Shown here in pieces: positions 3,840 to 50,544 of a DNA stretch of 53,204 bases; within the stretch, counting starts at the first letter, position 1, and every line of letters begins with the position of its first letter. Origin of the DNA: Prochlorococcus sp. AG-363-M17 (GTDB taxonomy: Bacteria; Cyanobacteriota; Cyanobacteriia; PCC-6307; Cyanobiaceae); the NCBI GenBank assembly GCA_003278365.1, contig QCFS01000009.1, positions 1 through 53,204 of the forward strand, read 5' to 3'. The position numbers and the translations under genes are program-made. The notes beneath the pieces were generated by a model that saw only the letters and a list, made by a program, of their open reading frames with translations, searched no databases and was not told the origin of the DNA.

Positions 3840-5147
3840 ATGTCACCTCAACTAACACTTCAGACTCCTCTTAAATTACCTTCTGAAGAGATACCAGTTT
3901 ACTTGGAAAAATTATGGACTAACGATCAGCCAGGAAATATTGGCGCAAATACTTTTTGCTTATTGATTTGGCAGCCAGCTTGGTTAGAGCAGCAACTCGT
4001 ACGTACTGGCAGAATTAAGGGCCCTGTAATTGGCTCTCAAAGAAAAGGACTTATAAATGCAGCTCGCAAAGTTGTTCTAGAGGAAAACCTCCCACCTAGT
4101 ACATCACCTTTTGATTCGAAGGTTACTGAAACTATTTCTAAGGAAACTGGTAGTTTTTTAGCTGAGGATTTAAGAGGTCAGCATATTGATTCAGCTATAA
4201 GTGCTTTGCAGCCAAGAAGGTTTATTACGCTTGCACCAACAATTGAGCCAAATAAAAAACTTGAAACATTAGTAGCCGCCTATTGCCCTCTGCCTGAGGA
4301 AGGTGGAGGTCAGTCAGCCTGTGGTGATGTGGTTGTTCTTAAAGGAGGACTTGATTCACTACTGGAAGGCCTTGAGATCTTGGATTCTTTGACACTTAAG
4401 GACCTTCCTTCTTGGTTGTGGTGGAACGGGAGCCTTGATCAGGCTTCTAAATTATTAGATCAACTAGCTAGCCCTCCTCGGAGATTAGTTATAGATACTG
4501 CTCTTGGACATCCTGATCGATGCTTTGCTTTTCTTACTCAACGTATTCTTCAAGGTCAGGCTGTCAATGATTTGAATTGGTTGCGTTTGAGAAGTTGGCG
4601 GGAAACTCTTGCAATTGTTTTTGACCCACCAAGCAGACGAAACGCTTTGAAGAATGTTGTTCAGTTGGACATTGATATTGAGGATTCTCATCCTGTTCAA
4701 GGGTTGTTACTTGCTGCCTGGCTAGCTGACAGACTCGATTGGGACTTTCAAAAATTGGTGTCGCTAGACGGGGATGGCATTGGGGCAGAGTTTTTTCGTC
4801 CTGATGGAACTTCAGTCCATTTCCGCTTAATGCCTCTACCAGTTGCTAATCCAAGTGATCACCCTGGACAAATTGTTGGAATTAGATTGATCTCTAAGTC
4901 ATCAACTAATCCAAGCGATGCATTATGTGTGATCCTTGGAGCTGAGTCTGGAGAATGCATGAGACTTGAGGCAGGTGGGATGGCCAATATGGAACTTCTT
5001 GAGGAGGTCGTCCCAATTCAAAAAACGACTGTTGAAATGGATGTTGCACGCTTGTTGGCGAGCAGTAGAGGTTCAACAAGTCCCCTTCTTGCATCAGCGG
5101 CACCTTTGGCTGCAAAGCTTTATTCCTATTCGAAATCGTTTACTTAG
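3840..5147 (+). CDS. opcA: Glucose-6-phosphate dehydrogenase assembly/activator protein OpcA
   Basis: OpcA is a redox-sensitive allosteric activator of cyanobacterial G6PDH. The 435-aa length and full-length family appearance fit: N-terminal LPSEEIPVYLEKLW, central CPLPEEGGGQSACGDVVVL, and LPSWLWWNGSLD. It lies immediately downstream of zwf and is probably co-transcribed. Cysteines in the central segment could be the thioredoxin-sensitive ones, but I cannot assign them from one sequence. Confidence 0.93.
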   Translation: MSPQLTLQTPLKLPSEEIPVYLEKLWTNDQPGNIGANTFCLLIWQPAWLEQQLVRTGRIKGPVIGSQRKGLINAARKVVLEENLPPSTSPFDSKVTETISKETGSFLAEDLRGQHIDSAISALQPRRFITLAPTIEPNKKLETLVAAYCPLPEEGGGQSACGDVVVLKGGLDSLLEGLEILDSLTLKDLPSWLWWNGSLDQASKLLDQLASPPRRLVIDTALGHPDRCFAFLTQRILQGQAVNDLNWLRLRSWRETLAIVFDPPSRRNALKNVVQLDIDIEDSHPVQGLLLAAWLADRLDWDFQKLVSLDGDGIGAEFFRPDGTSVHFRLMPLPVANPSDHPGQIVGIRLISKSSTNPSDALCVILGAESGECMRLEAGGMANMELLEEVVPIQKTTVEMDVARLLASSRGSTSPLLASAAPLAAKLYSYSKSFT

Positions 5148-5178
5148 TTCACTCCTTCCTCTCTGAGAACAAGTTTTA

Positions 5179-6558
5179 ATGGCATGTGTAATAGCTGCAA
5201 CCTCAAGTGGGAGTGGTAAAACACTTTTAAGTCTGCTGTTATTAGCATGGGCTCGCTCAAAGGGTTTAAATATTCAACCGTTTAAGGTTGGTCCTGATTA
5301 CTTAGATGCTCAATACTTGTCCAAAGTTGCTAATAATGCTTGTCGGAATCTTGATCTTCTTCTTTGTGGTCCTAAATGGGTTACGGAAAGTTTTCATGGA
5401 TATGGAGGTTTGGCAGATTTAGTTTTAGTGGAGGGCGTGATGGGACTTTTTGATGGTATTGGATCGTCGGAAGAAGGAAGTACAGCTGCTGTAGCAAAGC
5501 ATTTGAATCTACCTGTAGTTTTGGTTGTTGACGCTTCTGGTCAGGCAGCCTCTATTGCAGCACTAGTTAATGGCTTTCTGAGACATGATCCTGCCCTCAA
5601 GATTGCAGGGGTAGTTCTTAACCAGGTAAACACCTCTAGGCATAGAGCTTTGTTAACTGAGGTTCTAGATAGATTGGGAGTTAAGGTTCTTGGTTGTTTG
5701 CCAAGAGATCCATCTTTTGCACTAACTAGTAGGAATTTAGGATTAGTTCCCGCTCATGAGTTGAAGAATTTAGATGCAAAATTGCAGAAATGGACATCAC
5801 TGGCGATAAAAAATCTAGACCTTCCAGAATTTCATAAGTTGCTATTGCCCCCGATTAGTTCAAAAGACCCAATAAGAACATTGTATGAGAAATCTATAGA
5901 TAAATTTTCTTCATTGCCTCCCAGACCAGTTGCCATTGCTGAGGATGATGCTTTTCATTTTAGATATCAAGAGACAAAAGATTGCCTGGAGGCATTAGGA
6001 ATGCCTTTGATTTCTTGGAAGCCTCTTGAGGATGTACCTCTGCCTTTGGAAGCCAAAGGACTGATAATTCCAGGAGGCTTCCCAGAGCAATATGCATTTG
6101 AGTTATCAAAATGCTTAAGAAGTCTAAGTGATATTTCTTCTTGGTTTGGTAGGCGGCCAATTTATGCAGAATGTGGGGGAATGATGTTATTGGGAGAATC
6201 TATTTCTGATTCAGACGGTACTGTGCATGAAATGGCAGGACTATTACCATTTCATGCATCTAGAGGTAATCTAAATATTGGTTATCGATTCTTGCTAGGA
6301 AAGGATCCAAGCTTAATTGTTAGAGAAGGACAATCACTTGTTGGCCATGAATTTCATCGATGGGACCTCAAGATCTATGATCATAAAGAATGTTCTCTAA
6401 TAAAACCATGGACTATTAAAGGCTTCAATAGTGCATTTAGGGATGAAGGATGGGCAAATAATCTTTTGCATGCTAGCTGGGTGCACTTACATTGGGCAAG
6501 CTCTTCTTCGATTCCACTCAACTTTCGTATTGCACTAGACAAATTAGATGCTCTTTGA
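5179..6558 (+). CDS. cobB: Cobyrinic acid a,c-diamide synthase
   Basis: Amidates the a and c carboxylates of (hydrogeno)cobyrinate with glutamine and ATP in cobalamin (here pseudocobalamin) synthesis. It has 459 aa. The N-terminal dethiobiotin-synthetase-like ATPase starts with the P-loop ATSSGSGKTLLS. DYLDAQYLS and EGVMGLFDGIG are typical. The C-terminal type-1 glutamine amidotransferase carries its nucleophile cysteine in AECGGMMLLG and a late EFHRWD histidine. CbiA is the anaerobic-pathway name for the same family. It starts 31 nt after opcA on the same strand. Confidence 0.93.
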   Translation: MACVIAATSSGSGKTLLSLLLLAWARSKGLNIQPFKVGPDYLDAQYLSKVANNACRNLDLLLCGPKWVTESFHGYGGLADLVLVEGVMGLFDGIGSSEEGSTAAVAKHLNLPVVLVVDASGQAASIAALVNGFLRHDPALKIAGVVLNQVNTSRHRALLTEVLDRLGVKVLGCLPRDPSFALTSRNLGLVPAHELKNLDAKLQKWTSLAIKNLDLPEFHKLLLPPISSKDPIRTLYEKSIDKFSSLPPRPVAIAEDDAFHFRYQETKDCLEALGMPLISWKPLEDVPLPLEAKGLIIPGGFPEQYAFELSKCLRSLSDISSWFGRRPIYAECGGMMLLGESISDSDGTVHEMAGLLPFHASRGNLNIGYRFLLGKDPSLIVREGQSLVGHEFHRWDLKIYDHKECSLIKPWTIKGFNSAFRDEGWANNLLHASWVHLHWASSSSIPLNFRIALDKLDAL

Positions 6559-6603
6559 TATAAATTGCGTTAGATATTTGAAGAATTATTTGATTCAAAC
6601 TTG

Positions 6604-8079
6604 CTAATAAGCGCTTAATTGATTACCCCATTCCTCTTGAACAGAGAAATGTTCATTCTTTCCAACCATCCACACTTTTCTTCTTGCGCGAGTAACTGCC
6701 ACATATACTAGCTGCTTTCTTAGGGTTATATCTTTTGGCCAGAATACATCTGGTGCAATAAAAACCTCGTCAAAGCTGCTGCCTTGGCTTCTATGGATTG
6801 TCAATACTGAAGCTGGACCGAGAGACGCAAATGAATCTCTAATGAGAAAAAAAACCCTCCATACACTTCTACCATCTTTACGACCTAAGTCCTTGGCTTT
6901 GTTTTTTAGTCTATTTAGTGTCATATCAAGAAGAACTCTTCCTTTAGTTCCTATTGGTGGAAGTAGTCGGAGCTCTAATTCTGTATCTCCACAATGTACA
7001 TTTACTAATTGTGTCTCGATCGGTGGTAGCTCTATATTTTGCGTATTCCCTATATCTAACTTTGAAATATCAAATCTATGAGAGGAAACATCATTTACCA
7101 TTAATTCCCTATTTGAACCAAGAACCATCCCTGGCTCTTCTCTCTCATCAGTACCTTCTTTGGCAGCCGCAGTCATTATGGCTTCGCGAGTAAGGAGTAG
7201 TTCCCCAGGTAAAACAGGTAGCTGATCTGCCATTTCTCCATGCACAGCTCTTCTTGCATGAGGAACAAGTTTTTCCAAGGTTCTATTTGTATAACAAAGG
7301 ATTCTGGCTTCATTAGGATTGTCATTAAGAGCCGCTGAATTTAGTGATTTCTTCGCTTCCTCAAGCCATCTGTTTTTGTTTACAAAGCCAACAGATTCTT
7401 GCTTCTTTTCAATAATTGGAAGACAAGGTGGAGTTTTGCAAGGGATACTGCCTTCTCTGAAATTACTTGCGAGGCCTAAAACTGCTCCTCGGTGACGAAC
7501 AACTTCTTCTAATTCTGCTTTAAGAGAATTTTGGATTGAAAAAACGGGACTTTTTTCTTCTCCAACTGGAGGAAGTTGAGCTGAATCACCTACAAAAACT
7601 ACGCGCGTTTTGAAGGGGTTTGCGCATGAGAGAATTATTTCTAGAAGGCTGCTGCTTACCATCGAAGCCTCGTCTACAAGTACCAAGTCAACCAGTTCTA
7701 ATGAGCTAGCTGTTTGGTCTGTTGATTCGCATATTTCTAAGTCTCGTTCCCTTTTGAGCTTAAGACGGAGAAGTCGATGAATAGTTGATGGGTGCCATGT
7801 GGGTTTTATACCTTCTTTTTCTAAAGCTTCTTGAAGTACTCCCACTGCTTTATGAGTAGGCGCTGCGACAGTCCAGCAAAATCCTTCTTTTTCAGCAAGT
7901 TGCAGAAATCTCATTGAAAGGAAAGTTTTCCCGCTACCTGCATAACCACTTAGAACAAAAATAGACGTATTTTTATTTTTAGATTGCTTAAGCCATGTTC
8001 TAAATGCTTTGTATGCGAGTTCTTGATCATTAGTCAAGGAGTTGGATATTGATTGGCTATATTTATTTTTGATTTTCAC
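6604..8079 (-). CDS. RecD-like superfamily 1B DNA helicase (exonuclease V alpha-type)
   Basis: An ATP-dependent 5'-3' helicase of the RecD/Dda group, 491 aa. Motif I is GYAGSGKTFLS, motif II LVLVDEASMVS, motif III FVGDSAQLPPVGE, motif V HRSQGSSFDEV and motif VI VAVTRARRKVWMVG. This is shorter than RecD2 and lacks its long N-terminal helix-hairpin region. No recB or recC partner is nearby. It overlaps the DUF212 gene upstream by 4 nt, so the two are translationally coupled. The substrate is not known; repair or replication restart is the likely use. Confidence 0.85.
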   Translation of the reverse strand: MKIKNKYSQSISNSLTNDQELAYKAFRTWLKQSKNKNTSIFVLSGYAGSGKTFLSMRFLQLAEKEGFCWTVAAPTHKAVGVLQEALEKEGIKPTWHPSTIHRLLRLKLKRERDLEICESTDQTASSLELVDLVLVDEASMVSSSLLEIILSCANPFKTRVVFVGDSAQLPPVGEEKSPVFSIQNSLKAELEEVVRHRGAVLGLASNFREGSIPCKTPPCLPIIEKKQESVGFVNKNRWLEEAKKSLNSAALNDNPNEARILCYTNRTLEKLVPHARRAVHGEMADQLPVLPGELLLTREAIMTAAAKEGTDEREEPGMVLGSNRELMVNDVSSHRFDISKLDIGNTQNIELPPIETQLVNVHCGDTELELRLLPPIGTKGRVLLDMTLNRLKNKAKDLGRKDGRSVWRVFFLIRDSFASLGPASVLTIHRSQGSSFDEVFIAPDVFWPKDITLRKQLVYVAVTRARRKVWMVGKNEHFSVQEEWGNQLSAY

Positions 8080-8588
8080 CCGGATGCTAACCCTAGGATC
8101 TGAGCAAGATGAAAAGGTGAACCAATAAAGATAAGTCCAGGTAATGCAATTAAAGGTCCAATAATGCTACCAACTAGAACTTCTAATCTACTATGACCAA
8201 GATTTTCTTTAAGATCATTATTAAAAGAATCTTGCCATAGTTTGGATGGCAATAGATTTACTCTCTTGGATATATTTCCTGCTTCACGTCTTATACCACT
8301 AGCGTCATACATAACAATAAAGGCAATTGTTGCAGCTAATGCAAATCCTGGGTCATCAAAACCAAGTTGCCAACCAATACCTGCCGCCGTGCCAGTTACT
8401 AATGATGAATGACTTGAAGGCATACCTCCTGTCTCAATTAATACAGAAGGCCTCCATCGCTTGTTCACTAAAAGTTCAAAAATTAGTTTTGAAAGTTGAG
8501 CAAACCCACAAGCAAGCAGTCCCCATGTCAATACTGCGTTGTCAAAAATTTCAAGGGTTCTAGGCAATGAGGTCTCTAAATTAGTCAT
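8076..8588 (-). CDS. DUF212 / divergent PAP2 family membrane protein
   Basis: A 170-aa membrane protein of the acid-phosphatase/vanadium-haloperoxidase-related group. Signature pieces are [20 protein letters not shown] (residues about 42-61), [12 protein letters not shown] and [15 protein letters not shown]. These correspond to the PSxH and SRxxxxxH-like positions of PAP2 phosphatases. The substrate is unproven; an isoprenoid or lipid phosphate is suggested only by its neighbour crtE. It overlaps crtE and the RecD-like gene by 4 nt each. Confidence 0.85.
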
Positions 8589-34427: not shown

Positions 34428-36022
34428 TCTATCAGGAGCCTTTTTATAGTTTTACGAAAGAGCCTATGGACTCTAATTCCTCCCACTTGCCTGTGTACAG
34501 ACTTGTTGAAGAATGATCTTGGCTTACTCTCGATATCATCCATGAAAATTTTAATTTCGTTGGCAATCACTTGTTGTACTTGTAGAGGTTTTACTCCTAC
34601 TAACTCTTGCCCAAGTTGGAATAAATCTTCTGACTCTTCTCCCTGTTCTCTTTCTACTCTTATTGGTGAGAAATGACTTGCTCCTTCGACTAAGATGACT
34701 CGACTTTTTGGATTAGGTGGTGTTGATATAAGTAATCCAAGTTGTTCGCTTAATGGAGGGGTGATCAAATCAAGGGTCCCACCAGCGAATAGGACTGGTA
34801 CATCTAGTTGGGCATCTCCTTCATTTGGCCACAGTAAACTTCCAAAGCTATTTAATCCAACAATGGCTTTCAAATTTTCAATTTTCTCTTTCTTTATTAA
34901 TCCAATATTGTTTAATTGGCATTGAAGAAATTGCGACAGATTTGTTATAGAAAGATCGTCTAATGCCTTTTTACATTTATCTTTTAGATTAGTACCAGGC
35001 ATGGCACCGCCTGCAAGTAAGGCAGTTAATGCTCCAAGGGAATGTCCCATTAGAACTACTTCAGTTTCTTTTATATTTAGTTGTCCTTGTTCTTTTGCAA
35101 GGAGGACAGCTTCCACATCACTTAATCTTTCTGGGATAACTTCTGCCCCAGGTGGAGCACTTTTCCCTTCTAGTAATTCTTTAACTGCTCTAGTATCACT
35201 CCCAGGATGCTCTAACACCACAACAGACCATCCGTTACTACTTAGATATCTTGCTAGCCACCTAAAATGATTCTGACTTCCACCAAGCCCTGGCATTAAA
35301 AGTACCCAGCTTGATTTTCTATAATCATTTTCTCTTGAATTCCATACTTCCAATTCAAGCACCTCCTCCCTATGAGTGACATCTATTGGGATTGAAATTG
35401 GTAGGACTGAGTCTTGTTCTTTGTATACATTTTCAGGATTTGGTTGTTCTTTTGAAGGAAGCTTTGCAAGAGATTCTGAAAGCTTTTGCTGACTATTTAG
35501 TTGGACTTTCCAGCGATGTGCCATTTGAAACAAAGCATCTAAATCTAGTCTTATATTTACTGCTGGTAGCTCTTCAAGAAGCTCTAAGGTACTAACTTCT
35601 GACTGTTTTTCTAGTAATCTTTCAATAGTATTAAATAATGTTGCTCCTGTATCATCATTATCAACCAATATAAGATCACTTACTTCATCTAAAAGCTGAC
35701 GGCCTGCCCAGCTTCGTAATACTTGCCGACCGAGACTAAGTTCCTTCAATAATGGTGCCTTTAGGATTTTCTGTAAACCTTCTCGACTTTCTGGCTCTAA
35801 TAAGTCCAACCATATTGATAGCTCTGACTTTGTTCTTGTTGGTGAGCGCCCCCATTCCGTTAACTCTTCAATCGAAACAGGAATCAGTGTTCCGTCAATT
35901 TGAACTTCCAATTGATCAGCTGACTTTGCAAGGGGTATCCATAAGACAGTCAGCATCAGACTGCTTAAAATCCCACGTGAAATCTTCTTAGTTGGCTTTT
36001 TTAAAAACAATAATGAATCCAT
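34421..36022 (-). CDS. Exported alpha/beta hydrolase with N-terminal DUF1400
   Basis: 533 aa. A signal peptide with a lysine-rich start (KKPTKKISRG) and hydrophobic LMLTVLWIPLAKSA precedes the DUF1400 domain (about 38-170), a cyanobacterial module. The alpha/beta hydrolase domain has the nucleophile elbow VVLMGHSLGALTALLAGG, the oxyanion region LLMPGLGGSQNHFRW and a late SHFSPI histidine. It resembles PAF-acetylhydrolase/lipase-like proteins; the substrate is unknown. A later ATG at 35956 would avoid overlap with the divergent MFS gene but shortens the signal peptide. Confidence 0.82.
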   Translation of the reverse strand: MDSLLFLKKPTKKISRGILSSLMLTVLWIPLAKSADQLEVQIDGTLIPVSIEELTEWGRSPTRTKSELSIWLDLLEPESREGLQKILKAPLLKELSLGRQVLRSWAGRQLLDEVSDLILVDNDDTGATLFNTIERLLEKQSEVSTLELLEELPAVNIRLDLDALFQMAHRWKVQLNSQQKLSESLAKLPSKEQPNPENVYKEQDSVLPISIPIDVTHREEVLELEVWNSRENDYRKSSWVLLMPGLGGSQNHFRWLARYLSSNGWSVVVLEHPGSDTRAVKELLEGKSAPPGAEVIPERLSDVEAVLLAKEQGQLNIKETEVVLMGHSLGALTALLAGGAMPGTNLKDKCKKALDDLSITNLSQFLQCQLNNIGLIKKEKIENLKAIVGLNSFGSLLWPNEGDAQLDVPVLFAGGTLDLITPPLSEQLGLLISTPPNPKSRVILVEGASHFSPIRVEREQGEESEDLFQLGQELVGVKPLQVQQVIANEIKIFMDDIESKPRSFFNKSVHRQVGGIRVHRLFRKTIKRLLIDQ

Positions 36023-37245
36023 TGCGATGGTGGTCCCAGTTCCCAGCCGCTTTAAGACTAATAACTAGAGTTCGTTTTTTAGCCTCTTTTGGGGCTGGAG
36101 GGGTCATTTTCTTGACCCCTTTGGTCTTTAACCAAATTAGTTTTTCTGCTACCCAGGTTGGGATTGGAATAGCTGCAGCTGCAGGGTTAGGCACTTTTGC
36201 AAGATTTTTAAGTGGTGGCCTATTAGATCGTAAGGTTTCATCAACTTGGATAGTTCTTGTTAGCTGCTTTTTATTTATTCTTGCTGATGGCGTGCTTTTT
36301 TTTGCAAAAGGTTTTGACTTATACCTCAAGGGGCAGTTGCTGATCGGGTTAGCAGCAGGATTGTATTGGCCTGCTGTTGAGTTAGCAGTCCCTTTCTCAT
36401 GTGTTTCATTCTCCTCAAGGAGAGGTTTTGCTTTGGTAAGGAGTGCAGATGCTCTTGGTATGAGTTTGGGGACGTTTATGGGGTCAATTGCTGCTTCATT
36501 AAGTCTGATTAGGTCGATTTATATTTTTGATTGCTTTTGCATGCTTTTTCTGGTTCTTCTCCTGACTAGAAAACCTTTAAATAGTGGTTATACGAGTTTG
36601 TCTTATAACGAAAGAAACTCTCTAATTATTGATTCTAATCATTCCCAAGAAAAGACTTTGAGCAAAACTTGGTTGATTTCCCTAATTCCAATTCTAGTAA
36701 TTAGCATTACTTGTACTGGTATCTTTTCACTATTGCAGAGTGCTTTACCACTAGATTTAGTTCGAGGTGGAATTTCTCGACCTCCTCTTAGCGAAGGTTT
36801 AAGTGGCTCAATAATTACAATTCAACTTTGGTTGCTTGTCCTTCTTCAATGGCCAGTTGGTACATGGATGTCTAGAAAAAGTTTAAGATTAGGCTTAATA
36901 CTTAGCCTAATTAGCTTGGGCTTTGGATGCTTGATAGTCGCATATTCATCATTGATTTACCATGGCGCTGTATTACTAGTTCTTTCACAATTATTATTTG
37001 CGATAGGATTGGCAGCCTTTTTACCTACTGCTACTCAAGCAGTAATTGAAGGAACCCCCTCTTCAAAAAGAGGAATTGCGATGGCTTTGTTTTCTCAATG
37101 CTTTGCTATTACCGCCTTGGCAAGCCCTGTTGTTGCAGGAAGACTATTAGATAGCAATGGTCACCTTTTTCTCCTGTGGCTATCTATGTTTGCATTATGC
37201 ATTATTGCATTGCCTTGTGTGAGATTTATTCAGCAGGCTAATTAG
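36013..37245 (+). CDS. MFS transporter
   Basis: 410 aa from ATG 36013, with an open TTG at 35992. It has about 12 hydrophobic segments. The loop GLGTFARFLSGGLLDRK is the MFS loop 2-3 signature, and it has an internal repeat half (PVGTWMSRKSLRLGL). The substrate cannot be told. Its start overlaps the start of the divergent hydrolase gene. Confidence 0.85.
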   Translation: MNPLRWWSQFPAALRLITRVRFLASFGAGGVIFLTPLVFNQISFSATQVGIGIAAAAGLGTFARFLSGGLLDRKVSSTWIVLVSCFLFILADGVLFFAKGFDLYLKGQLLIGLAAGLYWPAVELAVPFSCVSFSSRRGFALVRSADALGMSLGTFMGSIAASLSLIRSIYIFDCFCMLFLVLLLTRKPLNSGYTSLSYNERNSLIIDSNHSQEKTLSKTWLISLIPILVISITCTGIFSLLQSALPLDLVRGGISRPPLSEGLSGSIITIQLWLLVLLQWPVGTWMSRKSLRLGLILSLISLGFGCLIVAYSSLIYHGAVLLVLSQLLFAIGLAAFLPTATQAVIEGTPSSKRGIAMALFSQCFAITALASPVVAGRLLDSNGHLFLLWLSMFALCIIALPCVRFIQQAN

Positions 37246-41350: not shown

Positions 41351-42589
41351 CTATGCAGCTTTGTTTGTCTTAATCGTATTTGGAGACACCTTTCTATTAG
41401 TAGTGACTTCACCAGCTTCACTAAGGTCTTCCTGAAGTCGACTTTCACAGGATAAAACTCGTGACCACGACGGTAATTGTTCAGTGGAAGGAGACTCTAG
41501 AAATGCTTGTACAGCAGGTTTTAATAGTAATGAGAACTTGTTAACGGCAAGCTCTTCTTCGTGTCTATTGTAAGGAAGATGATTTATAGCAGAATCTAGA
41601 CCAAATTGTTTTACACGGTCTTCACCTACGCGTTTGAAAAGTACTTCAAGGGTAGATAATTGTGAAGTGGTGAGAGTTTTTCCCTCGTGTTCCATTAGCC
41701 CTCTTAAAACACTAGAAAGAACCTCACTACACATGCGCTGCAAGCCCTCCTTAGGAGACTCACCTATTTCTTTATGCTTATGATCAAACAGTCCAAGGTC
41801 AACTTGGGCAATACGGTTTATTGGAACATGTCTGAATACTTCTGAAAGAAGACCAACTTCTAATCCCCAATCGCAAGGTATACGTAAATTCATTCCTAAT
41901 CCTTTAGTAAAAGCAAACTCTCCAGCAAGTGGATATCTGAATGATTGTAAGTATTTCAAATAAGGAATACTTCCAAATAGTTGTTCTAAACTCGTTAGTA
42001 ATGGATTGACAAATAATCTAGTAGCTCTTCCTTGAAGAGCACTATTTTCTATTGATACCCTACTGTAGAAAGCTTTGACATATGAAATACCATCTGATGG
42101 ATCTAGCAATGGTTTAAGCATTCTTGCAGGGTATGAACTTCCGAATGTACGAATGTCAGCATCAAAAAGTGCTATTACATCTGCTGTCTTTGTGGCCACC
42201 CCTATCCCTTGCCATACTGCCCAGCCCTTTCCAGGCTTGCGACGTAGCGAAAGGCCATTTTTATCATGAGCTTTTAGAAGCTCTAAAACAGCTGGACCAT
42301 TTGTCCATTGGATATGAACTGGGAATGGCATTCCTGAAAAGAAAACTTTGGCTTCCTCTACTTCCTCTATGGAGTTAGCGCACAAGGCTATAACCAGTTT
42401 TTCTAGCCCCTCTAGGTTCTTAAGTACTTCTCTAATCAATTTTAATGCTGGCCTTTCAAATTCTTCGAAAAGGCAAGGTATTAAAATGGCTGTAGGCCTA
42501 TTTCTTAGGCCAGACCTCAATTCGCCCATGGAATCTTTGAATATTCCATATTGATGAATGGTTGTTATGAGACCCTGTTGAAAGTCCAT
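41351..42589 (-). CDS. gpgS: Glucosyl-3-phosphoglycerate synthase
   Basis: A 412-aa GT81 retaining glycosyltransferase that joins glucose from an NDP-sugar to 3-phosphoglycerate, the first step to the compatible solute glucosylglycerate. ILIPCLFEEFERPALKLI is the N-terminus and the metal site is DAD (143-145, in IALFDADIRTFG). KPGKGWAVWQGIG and FRYPLAGEFAFTKGLG are family patterns, and GLEVGLLSEVF follows. It is divergent from the phosphorylase gene, with 77 nt between starts. Confidence 0.92.
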   Translation of the reverse strand: MDFQQGLITTIHQYGIFKDSMGELRSGLRNRPTAILIPCLFEEFERPALKLIREVLKNLEGLEKLVIALCANSIEEVEEAKVFFSGMPFPVHIQWTNGPAVLELLKAHDKNGLSLRRKPGKGWAVWQGIGVATKTADVIALFDADIRTFGSSYPARMLKPLLDPSDGISYVKAFYSRVSIENSALQGRATRLFVNPLLTSLEQLFGSIPYLKYLQSFRYPLAGEFAFTKGLGMNLRIPCDWGLEVGLLSEVFRHVPINRIAQVDLGLFDHKHKEIGESPKEGLQRMCSEVLSSVLRGLMEHEGKTLTTSQLSTLEVLFKRVGEDRVKQFGLDSAINHLPYNRHEEELAVNKFSLLLKPAVQAFLESPSTEQLPSWSRVLSCESRLQEDLSEAGEVTTNRKVSPNTIKTNKAA

Positions 42590-42666
42590 TTGGTGTTGAG
42601 AGCAACAGAACTAAATGGTTGAGTCGAAGATCTTGGACAGAATGGTAGTGGATACCCTTATAAGCG

Positions 42667-44406
42667 TTGATTACGCAAGGACCAAAACTGTTGAAGTTAC
42701 TCAGGGAGATCTACAAAGATCACTCTGCAGAAGAACTCGAATTAATTTGGTCGCAATTGATGCATATTCTCGAACTCTACTCCTCCAAAACGAGTTTTAA
42801 CCATATATCAGCCTCAGAGATTTGGGACTCTTCTTCCGCAGTTTTGATTACATATCCTGATGCAGTTTCTAAACCTGAAGAACCCTCTTTAAATGCGCTG
42901 GCTGAATTAATCGATCTGAAGATTGGCAATTTAGTAAGCGTGATTCATGTTTTGCCGTTTTTGAGATCAACTAGTGATGGCGGATTTGCTCTCTGTAGTC
43001 ATGAAGAGTTAGAGCCAAGTTATGGTAATTGGGATCATTTAAAACTGCTTAGTAAAAATCATCTTCTAATGGCTGACCTTGTCTTAAACCATGTCTCAGC
43101 TTCCCACCCTTGGGTAGAACAATTTAGAAAAGCAGAGGAACCTGGAAGAACTTATATCCTTTCACGTTCTAATAAAGAAGGGTGGGATCAAGTCTTTCGG
43201 CCAAGAAACTCTCCTTTGTTTTCAACTATAGCTACTGTAGAAGGACCTAAAAAAATATGGACAACCTTTAGTCCTGATCAAATTGATTTGAACTGGAGGA
43301 ACCCTTTCCTAATTTTAGAGTTCTTGAGATTGATAATTAAATATATTGATAATGGAGTTAAATGGATACGTTTGGATGCTGTAGGATTTATCTGGAAGGA
43401 GGCAGGGACAACTTGTATCCATAGAAAGCAAGTACACCTGATTGTTAAGCTTTTAAGAATAATTCTTCAGGAAATCACTCCAGACTCTGTATTACTTACT
43501 GAAACTAATGTTCCACAGAAAGATAACTTATCGTATTTAGAATTTGGAGAAGAAGCTAATATAGCGTACAATTTCCCACTTCCACCATTGCTTTTAGAAG
43601 CCATAATTAGCAATAAAGTTGATCTCTTAAACAAATGGATAAATGCTTGGCCAAATCTCCCAACAAAAACCACACTACTTAATTTTACTGCTTCTCACGA
43701 TGGGGTTGGATTAAAACCTTTGCATGGATTAATGAGTGTTGAGCGACTTCACAACCTCTTGATAGAATGCGAAAAAAGAGGGGGATTTGTTAGTCATAGA
43801 ACTCTTCCTAATGGTGTAGAGGAACCTTATGAAATTAATATCAGTTGGTGGAGTGCAATGAGAGACGATAAGAATCAACTAGGTAATTGTCAGTCAGATT
43901 GCTTTGTCTTGAGTCAGCTTCTCGTAATGGCCCTACCTGGAGTGCCTGCGTTCTACTTGCAAGCTTTATTAGGTTCAGGAAATGATCTAAATAGCTTTAA
44001 ACAAACCGGTCAAAGAAGAGACTTAAATCGAGAAAAGTTTAGAATGGAAACATTGCTTTCTAACTTGAATGATTCTAATTCCCCTGTAAATAAGAATTTA
44101 AGTCATTTGAAAAAAGCTATGACTATTCGTAGCAATTTAAAGGCCTTTCATCCAGAAGCTCCCATGACTTGTTTGAGTAAAGATAGGAATGATTTGATTA
44201 TTTTAAGAAGAGGTCATGAGCATGAGTATGTCTGGGCTGTACATAACTTCACAGCGAATAATGTTTTGTTGACTTTGTCAGAGCTTATTCCTAATAGATT
44301 TAACCTCACTCTTTCTAAATGGCATGATCTCCTTATGGGCACTCAGACAGATGGTAAGACTATATCTATTAGGCCATACAGTGTTCAGTGGTTACAACCT
44401 ATTTGA
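42667..44406 (+). CDS. GH13_18 phosphorylase, probably glucosylglycerate phosphorylase
   Basis: A 579-aa alpha-amylase-family enzyme with a TTG start. Catalytic residues fit the sucrose-phosphorylase subgroup: nucleophile D237 (WIRLDAVGF), acid/base E279 (LLTETNVP) and H344-D345 (ASHDGVG). The LVLNHVSASHPW motif is also present. Members split sucrose, glucosylglycerol or glucosylglycerate with phosphate to glucose-1-phosphate. The genes around it (gpgS, phosphatase, glycerate kinase) argue for glucosylglycerate; the sequence alone cannot decide. Its end lies 8 nt before the next start. Confidence 0.85.
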   Translation: MITQGPKLLKLLREIYKDHSAEELELIWSQLMHILELYSSKTSFNHISASEIWDSSSAVLITYPDAVSKPEEPSLNALAELIDLKIGNLVSVIHVLPFLRSTSDGGFALCSHEELEPSYGNWDHLKLLSKNHLLMADLVLNHVSASHPWVEQFRKAEEPGRTYILSRSNKEGWDQVFRPRNSPLFSTIATVEGPKKIWTTFSPDQIDLNWRNPFLILEFLRLIIKYIDNGVKWIRLDAVGFIWKEAGTTCIHRKQVHLIVKLLRIILQEITPDSVLLTETNVPQKDNLSYLEFGEEANIAYNFPLPPLLLEAIISNKVDLLNKWINAWPNLPTKTTLLNFTASHDGVGLKPLHGLMSVERLHNLLIECEKRGGFVSHRTLPNGVEEPYEINISWWSAMRDDKNQLGNCQSDCFVLSQLLVMALPGVPAFYLQALLGSGNDLNSFKQTGQRRDLNREKFRMETLLSNLNDSNSPVNKNLSHLKKAMTIRSNLKAFHPEAPMTCLSKDRNDLIILRRGHEHEYVWAVHNFTANNVLLTLSELIPNRFNLTLSKWHDLLMGTQTDGKTISIRPYSVQWLQPI

Positions 44407-44413
44407 TGAGCTG

Positions 44414-45199
44414 ATGATTACAAACGAAAACTGGTGGGTTGTTACTGATCTTGATGGAACACTTATGGATCATAAATATGACCTAATGCCAGCTTTAGAT
44501 ACAATTTATGCACTTGGTAAACTTGGTATCCCAGTAATTCCATGTACAAGTAAGACTTACTCAGAGGTTAAACTCTTTAGAAACAAGTATAACCTTAATG
44601 ATCCTTTTATTATTGAGAATGGAGGAGCAGCTTATGGAAACCATGAAGACTCACTTGATGAATGGGTCCTTAGATTTGGCTCTTCATATGATGAATTGAT
44701 AATCATTCTGAATAAAATATCATCCAATATTGGATATCAACTTCGAAGTATAAAGGATTTGTCAGATGCTGAATTTACAGCATTAACTGGTCTAGTGGGT
44801 GAAGCCATTAGCCACGCAATGGAGAGACTTTGGAGTGTTCCTTTTCTGACTCCACCATCTGAATATTCTTCAGCTCTTAGCAAATTTGCAAAAAAATACG
44901 ATGTCTCAATCTATCAAGGGAACAGAATGAGCCATTTGGTTCGTAGAGGAACTAATAAAGGTAATGCCTTGAATCAATTGAAGTATCACCTAAAGAAACC
45001 GGAATTGAAAATATTTGCATTAGGTGATTCACCTAATGACTTGCCTTTATTGGATGTTGCTGATTATGCAGTTGTTGTACCTGGTGCAAATGGTCCACAC
45101 CCAATCTTTCGGGATGGTATACAAACAGGAAAGTATATTCAGGCACCTAGCCCACATGCAAAAGGATGGGATAAGATTGTTCGCTCCTTTTTTCTTTAA
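44414..45199 (+). CDS. gpgP: Glucosyl/mannosyl-3-phosphoglycerate phosphatase (HAD family)
   Basis: About 261 aa from ATG 44414; the frame is open back into the phosphorylase. HAD motif I is TDLDGTLMD (residues 11-19), motif II PVIPCTSKT, and motifs III/IV are RGTNKGNALNQL and ALGDSPNDLPLL. IENGGAAYG is typical of the mannosyl-3-phosphoglycerate phosphatase group. With GpgS it would release free glucosylglycerate. It sits 8 nt behind the phosphorylase. Confidence 0.88.
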   Translation: MITNENWWVVTDLDGTLMDHKYDLMPALDTIYALGKLGIPVIPCTSKTYSEVKLFRNKYNLNDPFIIENGGAAYGNHEDSLDEWVLRFGSSYDELIIILNKISSNIGYQLRSIKDLSDAEFTALTGLVGEAISHAMERLWSVPFLTPPSEYSSALSKFAKKYDVSIYQGNRMSHLVRRGTNKGNALNQLKYHLKKPELKIFALGDSPNDLPLLDVADYAVVVPGANGPHPIFRDGIQTGKYIQAPSPHAKGWDKIVRSFFL

Positions 45200-45232
45200 A
45201 ATATTTATTTGTACCTTGTTTGATAGATACAT

Positions 45233-46267
45233 ATGTATAGTCAAATTCCTCACCCCTGGTCATGTCCAAGAGATCCTCAAATCTTATTCCCATTGAAGGA
45301 TTTAGAACTTCTTCTAGAAGATTTGGGTTGGTCTTCGTCAGATTCATGGTTGGCTTATTGGCATGAAAGGGATATCTATAATTATATTTCTAAATTTTGG
45401 CCTGTGGGTACAAAAAAAGACTGGTTTTGGTCTATAGGACTTCCTTTCCTTACACAAATAGAAACTTTGGTTAAGCAGATTGATGCCCCTATCTTAATTG
45501 GTATTTCAGGACTACCAGGATGTGGAAAAACTAGCTTTGGACTTTGGCTTGAAGAAGTCTCTAAGTTGTTGAAATTATCTGTCAAAGTTATTTCTATGGA
45601 TGACTTTTACTTACCTTCACATGAAATGAAGTTGGCAATGGCTCAAAATCCATGGAATGTTCCACGCGGCCTACCAGGAAGCCACTCTCTAGATATTTTA
45701 TCTGAATCAATTACTAAATTTCGCGAACATGGTGAATTAATTGCCCCTAAGTTTGACAAATCTCTTCGAGACGGTCTTGGTGATAGATCAGGATGGATTA
45801 GGTCAAATCCATCTGTTCTTATTGTTGAAGGTTGGTTCCTAGGTTGTTCTAATAGCTCGTATTTTAAAGATGAACTGAATACTCACGACACCATAATTCC
45901 ACCGTTAAGCAAGGCTGAAAAACATTATAGATATAAGGTTCAGAAATCACTGTTTGAATATCAGTCAATATGGAAGGAATTATCCGTTATATGGCATTTA
46001 AAGGCCCAGAATATTAACTACACTGCTCTTTGGAAAAAGCAACAAGAATCCAAGATGATGAATGAAAGAGGCTCTGCTTTGCAAGGTAAATCGCTTGAAA
46101 ACTTTATAAGAATGATTCAGGTGTCAATACCTCAAATGGATTTAATGTCAATAAAGGCCCCAGTTGTCGCGCATATTGGCAAACATCGAGAAATAATGTG
46201 GATTGGCAAGCAAGGCAATGAACCTGATATTGGTAATCCACTCAACGCTCATGTGGAGAGCCCCTAG
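45233..46267 (+). CDS. D-glycerate 3-kinase (GLYK type)
   Basis: 344 aa. The P-loop GLPGCGKT (93-100) lies in a uridine-kinase-like fold. SMDDFYLPSHEM, WNVPRGLPGSHSLD, PKFDKSLRDGLGDR and VLIVEGWFLG are the plant/cyanobacterial glycerate kinase pattern. It makes 3-phosphoglycerate and also ends photorespiration. Placed after the phosphorylase and phosphatase, it would recapture the glycerate released from glucosylglycerate. Confidence 0.9.
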   Translation: MYSQIPHPWSCPRDPQILFPLKDLELLLEDLGWSSSDSWLAYWHERDIYNYISKFWPVGTKKDWFWSIGLPFLTQIETLVKQIDAPILIGISGLPGCGKTSFGLWLEEVSKLLKLSVKVISMDDFYLPSHEMKLAMAQNPWNVPRGLPGSHSLDILSESITKFREHGELIAPKFDKSLRDGLGDRSGWIRSNPSVLIVEGWFLGCSNSSYFKDELNTHDTIIPPLSKAEKHYRYKVQKSLFEYQSIWKELSVIWHLKAQNINYTALWKKQQESKMMNERGSALQGKSLENFIRMIQVSIPQMDLMSIKAPVVAHIGKHREIMWIGKQGNEPDIGNPLNAHVESP

Positions 46268-49461: not shown

Positions 49462-50544
49462 TCAAAGAGTAATCGATGCAGAATCTGCGTTTTGTACGGC
49501 TTGAGGAATTCTCTTGAAGTCGAATCCTAATGCGCGTAGTGCGTGCCATAGGTGGCCTTGAAGGAAGAAGAAACCAAGGTAGTAATGAACATTGGTTAGC
49601 CATGCTCTTGATGTATGGCCAAGTGGCGCACCATCAATTGAAGGGACAGTATCAATCCAGTAAGGAGAGATGCCGAATTTCAATGCCAGTGGCTCTCCAT
49701 ACCAAGCTTCTGGATAAACAGTTGTGTTTGTTGCACACCAGAAGGCTGCAACAATTGCCATCCAGCCAATCCCTGCTAGAGACCAAGAAAGAACTGCTTC
49801 TGCTGAAAGTACTTTCGAGCCTTTAAATTCGGTGTATTCACCAATTTGCTTGGTAGCAATGTGGAATGCTCCGCCACCTATTTCGAAGAAGGCTAAGAAG
49901 GCATGCCCACCCATGACATCTTCAAGGTTGTCAATAGCTAGGAAGTCAAATTGATGATTCCAGATTTGAGTTAGGTCAAGGTTGTAGTTGACCTGACGTA
50001 CAGCTTCTATCGAGGGGTCGTAGATGCCGTGGACTCTTGCCCATTCGACAAACCAAGCACATGCAACACCCATGAAGATGAGGTGGTGACCAAGAATGAA
50101 GGTTTGATTGTCAGGATTCTCCCATTCCAGCTTGTATCTTGCTGCTTGACGGTGCTCAGGACGGTCAGGGCCGAATAGGCCAGAGCTGTTCTGAGTGTCT
50201 TCGCTGAAAATTAGAGAGTGTAATAGTCCAGCACTTGCATAGACCATTGAGCAGATCAAGTGGAAGACAGCAATGAAGGTGACGTCTGCGCCAGTCCATA
50301 CTCCTGCATTGTCAAAGCCAATTCCAAGTGATGCCAGGTGTGGGAGGAAAATTAAACCTTGATGTCCCATCGGTAATGATGGGTCAAAGCGAGCTAGTTC
50401 AAAAAGGGTGATAGCACCTGCATTAAAAGCAATTAATCCTGTATGAGCAACATGAGAGCCAATAAATCGGCTGGACTTGTTGGTAACTACAGAATTACCA
50501 ACCCACCACCCGTAGGTCGGACTTGGATTTCCATAGGACTGCAT
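49462..50544 (-). CDS. pcb: Pcb chlorophyll a/b light-harvesting antenna protein
   Basis: A 360-aa member of the CP43/IsiA/Pcb family with six TM helices, binding divinyl chlorophylls around the photosystems. Landmarks are YGWWVGNSVVTNKSSRFIGS, ARFDPSLPMGHQG, NPDNQTFILGHHLI, WFVEWARVHGIYDP and WHALRALGFDFKR. Conserved histidines in the helices are chlorophyll ligands. It lacks the large lumenal loop of CP43. I cannot assign its letter (pcbA-H). It shares a promoter block with the next pcb. Confidence 0.95.
   Translation of the reverse strand: MQSYGNPSPTYGWWVGNSVVTNKSSRFIGSHVAHTGLIAFNAGAITLFELARFDPSLPMGHQGLIFLPHLASLGIGFDNAGVWTGADVTFIAVFHLICSMVYASAGLLHSLIFSEDTQNSSGLFGPDRPEHRQAARYKLEWENPDNQTFILGHHLIFMGVACAWFVEWARVHGIYDPSIEAVRQVNYNLDLTQIWNHQFDFLAIDNLEDVMGGHAFLAFFEIGGGAFHIATKQIGEYTEFKGSKVLSAEAVLSWSLAGIGWMAIVAAFWCATNTTVYPEAWYGEPLALKFGISPYWIDTVPSIDGAPLGHTSRAWLTNVHYYLGFFFLQGHLWHALRALGFDFKRIPQAVQNADSASITL

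Follow-up and report, generated by a model that had tools for sequence, protein, structure and literature searches.

Loci for making and recycling glucosylglycerate (GGA) have already been described in picocyanobacteria. For Prochlorococcus NATL2A, Coe et al. (2024; PMC11631117) drew a GGA operon with recycling to glucose-1-phosphate and 3-phosphoglycerate, and in dark-tolerant cells of this strain the transcripts for synthesis fell and those for GGA recycling rose. The phosphorylase was identified by Franceus (2017), as cited in PMC7178133, where glucosylglycerate phosphorylase (GGaP) genes are given as common neighbours of gpgS, gpgP or glycerate kinase. Phosphorolytic recycling of GGA has therefore been published before. 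In marine Synechococcus, a gpgS-gmgG-gpgP cluster is credited to Scanlan (2009), as cited in PMC7522525, and SYNW2434-2436 of WH8102 comprise gpgS and gpgP with a middle gene (PMC2874817). That middle gene was named as a glucosidase, gmgG, and the name is still used in the literature.

Here we consider a stretch of 53,204 nucleotides from Prochlorococcus sp. AG-363-M17 (the window). The initial annotation had placed four neighbouring genes in it, with gpgS divergent from the genes for a GH13_18 enzyme, a HAD phosphatase and a glycerate kinase, and the coordinates and strands of the open reading frames bear this out:

41351-42589, minus strand: gpgS, predicted glucosyl-3-phosphoglycerate synthase, 412 aa; profile and PDB matches, DxD motif
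42590-42666: gpgS/ggaP spacer, 77 bp, presumed from sequence to hold both promoters
42667-44406, plus strand: ggaP, predicted GH13_18 glucosylglycerate phosphorylase, 579 aa, TTG start; YcjM homology, specificity residues
44414-45199, plus strand: gpgP, predicted HAD-IIB glucosyl-3-phosphoglycerate phosphatase, mechanical open reading frame 44324-45199; TIGR01486, DLDGTL
45233-46267, plus strand: glyK, predicted class III (plant/fungal-type) D-glycerate 3-kinase, 344 aa; PDB GLYK matches, Walker A

The locus is very probably the standard picocyanobacterial GGA make-and-recycle module with an adjoining glycerate kinase. The NATL2A operon comes from broadly the same genus and shares its co-located genes and the same inferred reactions, from GpgS through GGA to glucose-1-phosphate and 3-phosphoglycerate. 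However, a putative transporter lies beside the NATL2A cluster, whereas no transporter directly adjoins the cassette in the window, where the nearest MFS gene lies at 35992-37245. The adjacent trio of gpgS, middle gene and gpgP is that of marine Synechococcus; the glycerate kinase, found elsewhere in larger Synechococcus-like genomes, here adjoins the trio. The GGaP proteins of the nearest relatives, nearly all named Prochlorococcus, are 54-58% identical to that of the window. No Rfam match was found around the four-gene locus, and there was no sign of a phage-borne cassette, IMG/VR giving only two GGaP-related matches, each partial and 33-49% identical. The antenna gene at 49462-50544 belongs to the Pfam PSII family and is presumably of the Pcb type; like the GGaP relatives, it points to Prochlorococcus.

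Gene identities at the locus

The GH13_18 protein aligns over 528 aa with E. coli YcjM at 33% identity, and YcjM carries the annotation glucosylglycerate phosphorylase. Two sequence marks characterise this specificity, namely the motif (T/S)ETN and, in loop A, a glutamate at a position that holds glutamine in most other GH13_18 clades (Franceus and Desmet 2020; PMC7178133). In the window protein TETN occupies residues 278-281 and loop A reads VEEPYEIN, with Y388-E389. Across 14 aligned sequences (13 picocyanobacterial and E. coli YcjM), E389 is invariant, as is the GH13 catalytic Asp/Glu/Asp set of D237, E279 and D345, and TETN is kept except for a change of T278 to Ser in one relative. N281 and E389 match, at a constant offset of 6, Asn275 and Glu383 of the Meiothermus enzyme, whose mutation severely lowers activity (PMC7178133). 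Indeed, all catalytic and published specificity residues of the Meiothermus silvanus and E. coli YcjM enzymes are common to the window protein. As with GGaP in many bacteria, its gene neighbours GGA genes, with gpgS, gpgP and glycerate kinase all nearby; E. coli ycjM, in contrast, adjoins transport and kojibiose genes and not gpgS.

The protein might instead be a sucrose or glucosylglycerol phosphorylase, or the glucosyl(mannosyl)glycerate glucosidase implied by the persisting name gmgG, and so a mere neighbour of the GGA genes. Its top PDB matches, to glucosylglycerol phosphorylase and sucrose 6F-phosphate phosphorylase, would agree with this. However, loop A is unlike the published sucrose, sucrose-phosphate and glucosylglycerol motifs (PMC7178133), differing from the N(L/V)D(I/L/V)YQ of sucrose phosphorylase; TETN is present; the score against the sucrose-phosphorylase family TIGR03852 is 161 bits, below the cut-off of 334; and strong homologues occur only alongside gpgS. 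We regard action on another substrate as highly improbable. The initial annotation had foreseen that the enzyme might prove to be one for sucrose or glucosylglycerol only, and the sequence argues against this: every published mark of GGaP is present, from which we strongly infer that the protein is a glucosylglycerate phosphorylase.

Homology also identifies the remaining three genes. Whole-length similarity and a DxD motif (FDADI) mark the divergent gene as gpgS: it matches NCBIfam NF040724 (GpgS_Meth) over residues 1-392 (E 2e-110; 369 bits, short of the curated cut-off of 700) as well as NF010496, and PDB GpgS structures (7pdo and others) over part of its length (E 1.5e-15). The HAD protein scores 259 bits against TIGR01486, the mannosyl-3-phosphoglycerate phosphatase family, which exceeds the cut-off of 164.75, and falls just under that of the nearest equivalog (359 against 373). 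It carries DLDGTL, in keeping with the DxDGT motif, and matches the MPGP structures 3ztw and 1xvi. Its true start is most likely the ATG at 44414 (MITNENWWVVTDLDGTLMD), directly after the GH13 stop at 44406, because relatives begin there and the 30 residues upstream merely overlap the GH13 gene. With this start, gaps of 7 bases (ggaP-gpgP) and 33 bases (gpgP-glyK) separate the three plus-strand genes. The kinase resembles D-glycerate 3-kinases of the PDB (7xpc GLYK, E 1e-15; also 6ckg and 1odf) and has the Walker A sequence GLPGCGKT, both expected of class III GLYK. For the characterised enzymes of class III the listed product is 3-phosphoglycerate (PMC2063504), and by membership in the class the same product is predicted here. 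The gene is single copy in the host genome, an assembly of 1.41 Mb and 74% completeness in which any absence is weakly established.

Taken together, these identities suggest how the locus may work. GpgS would join glucose from a sugar nucleotide (NDP-glucose) to 3-phosphoglycerate, and GpgP would strip the phosphate from the resulting glucosyl-3-phosphoglycerate to leave GGA, a nitrogen-free compatible solute. GGaP would then use phosphate to cleave GGA, yielding glucose-1-phosphate and D-glycerate, and GLYK would phosphorylate the glycerate to 3-phosphoglycerate, probably serving photorespiratory glycerate too. Sequence marks, the phylogenetic distribution of the genes and published transcripts give good support to the loop from GpgS through GpgP and GGaP to GLYK proposed in the initial annotation.

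Co-occurrence, gene order and the divergent spacer

Counting strong full-length matches only, we found gpgS and GGaP together in 43 of 111 genomes of the family, with one genome carrying gpgS only, none carrying GGaP only and 67 carrying neither (Fisher p 4e-30, a value that overstates the association since related genomes are not independent). The pattern recurred among 194 genomes of the phylum, where 19 had both genes, one had gpgS only, none had GGaP only and 174 had neither (Fisher p 2e-25, overstated for the same reason). The order is also constant: among the named Prochlorococcus loci, 79 out of 80 show gpgS facing away from GGaP, gpgP and glyK, and the remaining locus ends at a contig edge. 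Such identical order indicates that the linkage is not due to chance, and the possibility that the arrangement would not be kept in relatives can be set aside.

Glycerate kinase behaves differently from the other genes. Matches were present in 100 of the 111 family genomes, 58 of them without GGaP, and among the 43 GGaP-bearing genomes glyK adjoined the other genes in 27 and lay apart from them in 14, and in two a contig edge hid the arrangement. Being near-universal and usually unaccompanied by the other three, the gene is best read as a general enzyme beside the module. Hence, the expectation that all four genes would co-occur holds almost perfectly for gpgS and GGaP, but not for glyK, which most likely encodes a photorespiratory kinase of general use that has the GGA module as its neighbour in Prochlorococcus.

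These distributions bear on a further reading, according to which GGaP runs mainly in the synthetic direction and makes GGA and phosphate from glucose-1-phosphate and photorespiratory glycerate. GGaP would then provide a second, nucleotide-free route to GGA, with GLYK competing for glycerate and closing no loop. The reaction is reversible and has been used for synthesis in vitro (PMC11009771), gpgP lies in the strand and gene run of GGaP and not of gpgS, and glyK is linked in the 27 genomes noted above. Yet a self-sufficient route should sometimes stand alone, and GGaP never occurred without gpgS in either genome set; moreover, the recycling transcripts of NATL2A rise when those of gpgS fall (PMC11631117). 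We consider mainly synthetic operation very unlikely and retain phosphorolytic recycling as the probable direction.

Divergent transcription may let cells adjust the committing step, gpgS, independently of the recycling operon. The initial annotation had proposed that the divergence separates making from breaking, and this stands in part: the NATL2A transcripts move oppositely (PMC11631117), but the two are not cleanly separated because gpgP sits in the recycling operon. A perfect TGTTG-N4-CAACA palindrome lies in the spacer at 42594-42607, with 0.02 expected by chance in the window. As a shared operator it was rejected, being kept in only two of 99 distinct upstream regions. No NtcA box of the form GTAN8TAC was visible in the gpgS/GGaP spacer of the window.

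Several loci depart from the common picture. In MIT 9302 (L067, 2349-5911) urease genes directly adjoin gpgS, which indicates that the neighbourhood of the module differs between Prochlorococcus clades. In one genome (G027; L140, L141) the divergent pair is split, with gpgS on one contig and GGaP-gpgP-glyK on another. Another (G015; L049 and L142, contigs C8 and C2) carries a second glyK, flanked by a decayed gpgS, as well as a complete cassette on another contig; the extra glyK could reflect duplication or a mixed assembly.

Loss of the module in relatives

The module has been lost independently among relatives, as read from single draft or finished assemblies taken as assembled. In G100 (L052, G100:C4:37000-47000, 4058-7097), of the same genus as the window, the flanks and glyK are intact, and gpgS, GGaP and gpgP have gone in place from between glyK and the next gene. 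Three further genomes (G079, G006 and G026; L046, L047 and L048) retain pieces of gpgS, gpgP or both next to a glyK that is whole, and represent intermediate stages of module loss. In G085 (L045, G085:C8:35000-48000, 4497-8246) the gpgS and gpgP frames are open and glyK is intact, but GGaP is a remnant of roughly 250 codons with many stops. The make-and-recycle loop is therefore not obligatory, since G100 has lost gpgS, GGaP and gpgP, and G085 keeps the genes for synthesis with GGaP ruined.

It is tempting to speculate that the GGA module is eroding in place, gene by gene, within Prochlorococcus, and that at least one lineage (G085) still makes GGA after loss of its phosphorylase, although we think this reading distinctly unlikely. 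Were it true, G085-like cells would be one-way producers of GGA, which would be exported or degraded by an unknown enzyme.

These losses also weigh on the view that the four genes form a dedicated carbon or glucose buffer, taking up fixed carbon as GGA during the day and returning it at night. The stoichiometry of the proposed loop, which would send both halves of GGA to central metabolism, and the co-location of the genes are consistent with such a role. However, Coe et al. weighed GGA storage and argued against it, raising instead uptake of external GGA by dark-tolerant cells (PMC11631117), and salinity responses indicate an osmolyte role, the genes annotated gpgS and gpgP being lowered in NATL1A at low salinity (PMC9606707). 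Furthermore, the module is absent from close relatives such as G100, and GLYK is not specific to it. A dedicated buffer thus seems rather unlikely, and the locus is better described as a module for making and recycling a compatible solute.

Biological significance

The module is real and conserved, and it is ordinary for picocyanobacteria. Our analysis makes modest additions to its description, namely a large-scale test of co-occurrence and gene order, the recognition that the kinase stands apart and a series of losses, and introduces no new principle. Nevertheless, GGA serves very abundant phototrophs of the ocean as an osmolyte free of nitrogen, so that its synthesis and recycling have a bearing on marine carbon exchange. 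If one-way producers like G085 do exist, the GGA leaving such cells would feed other marine bacteria.
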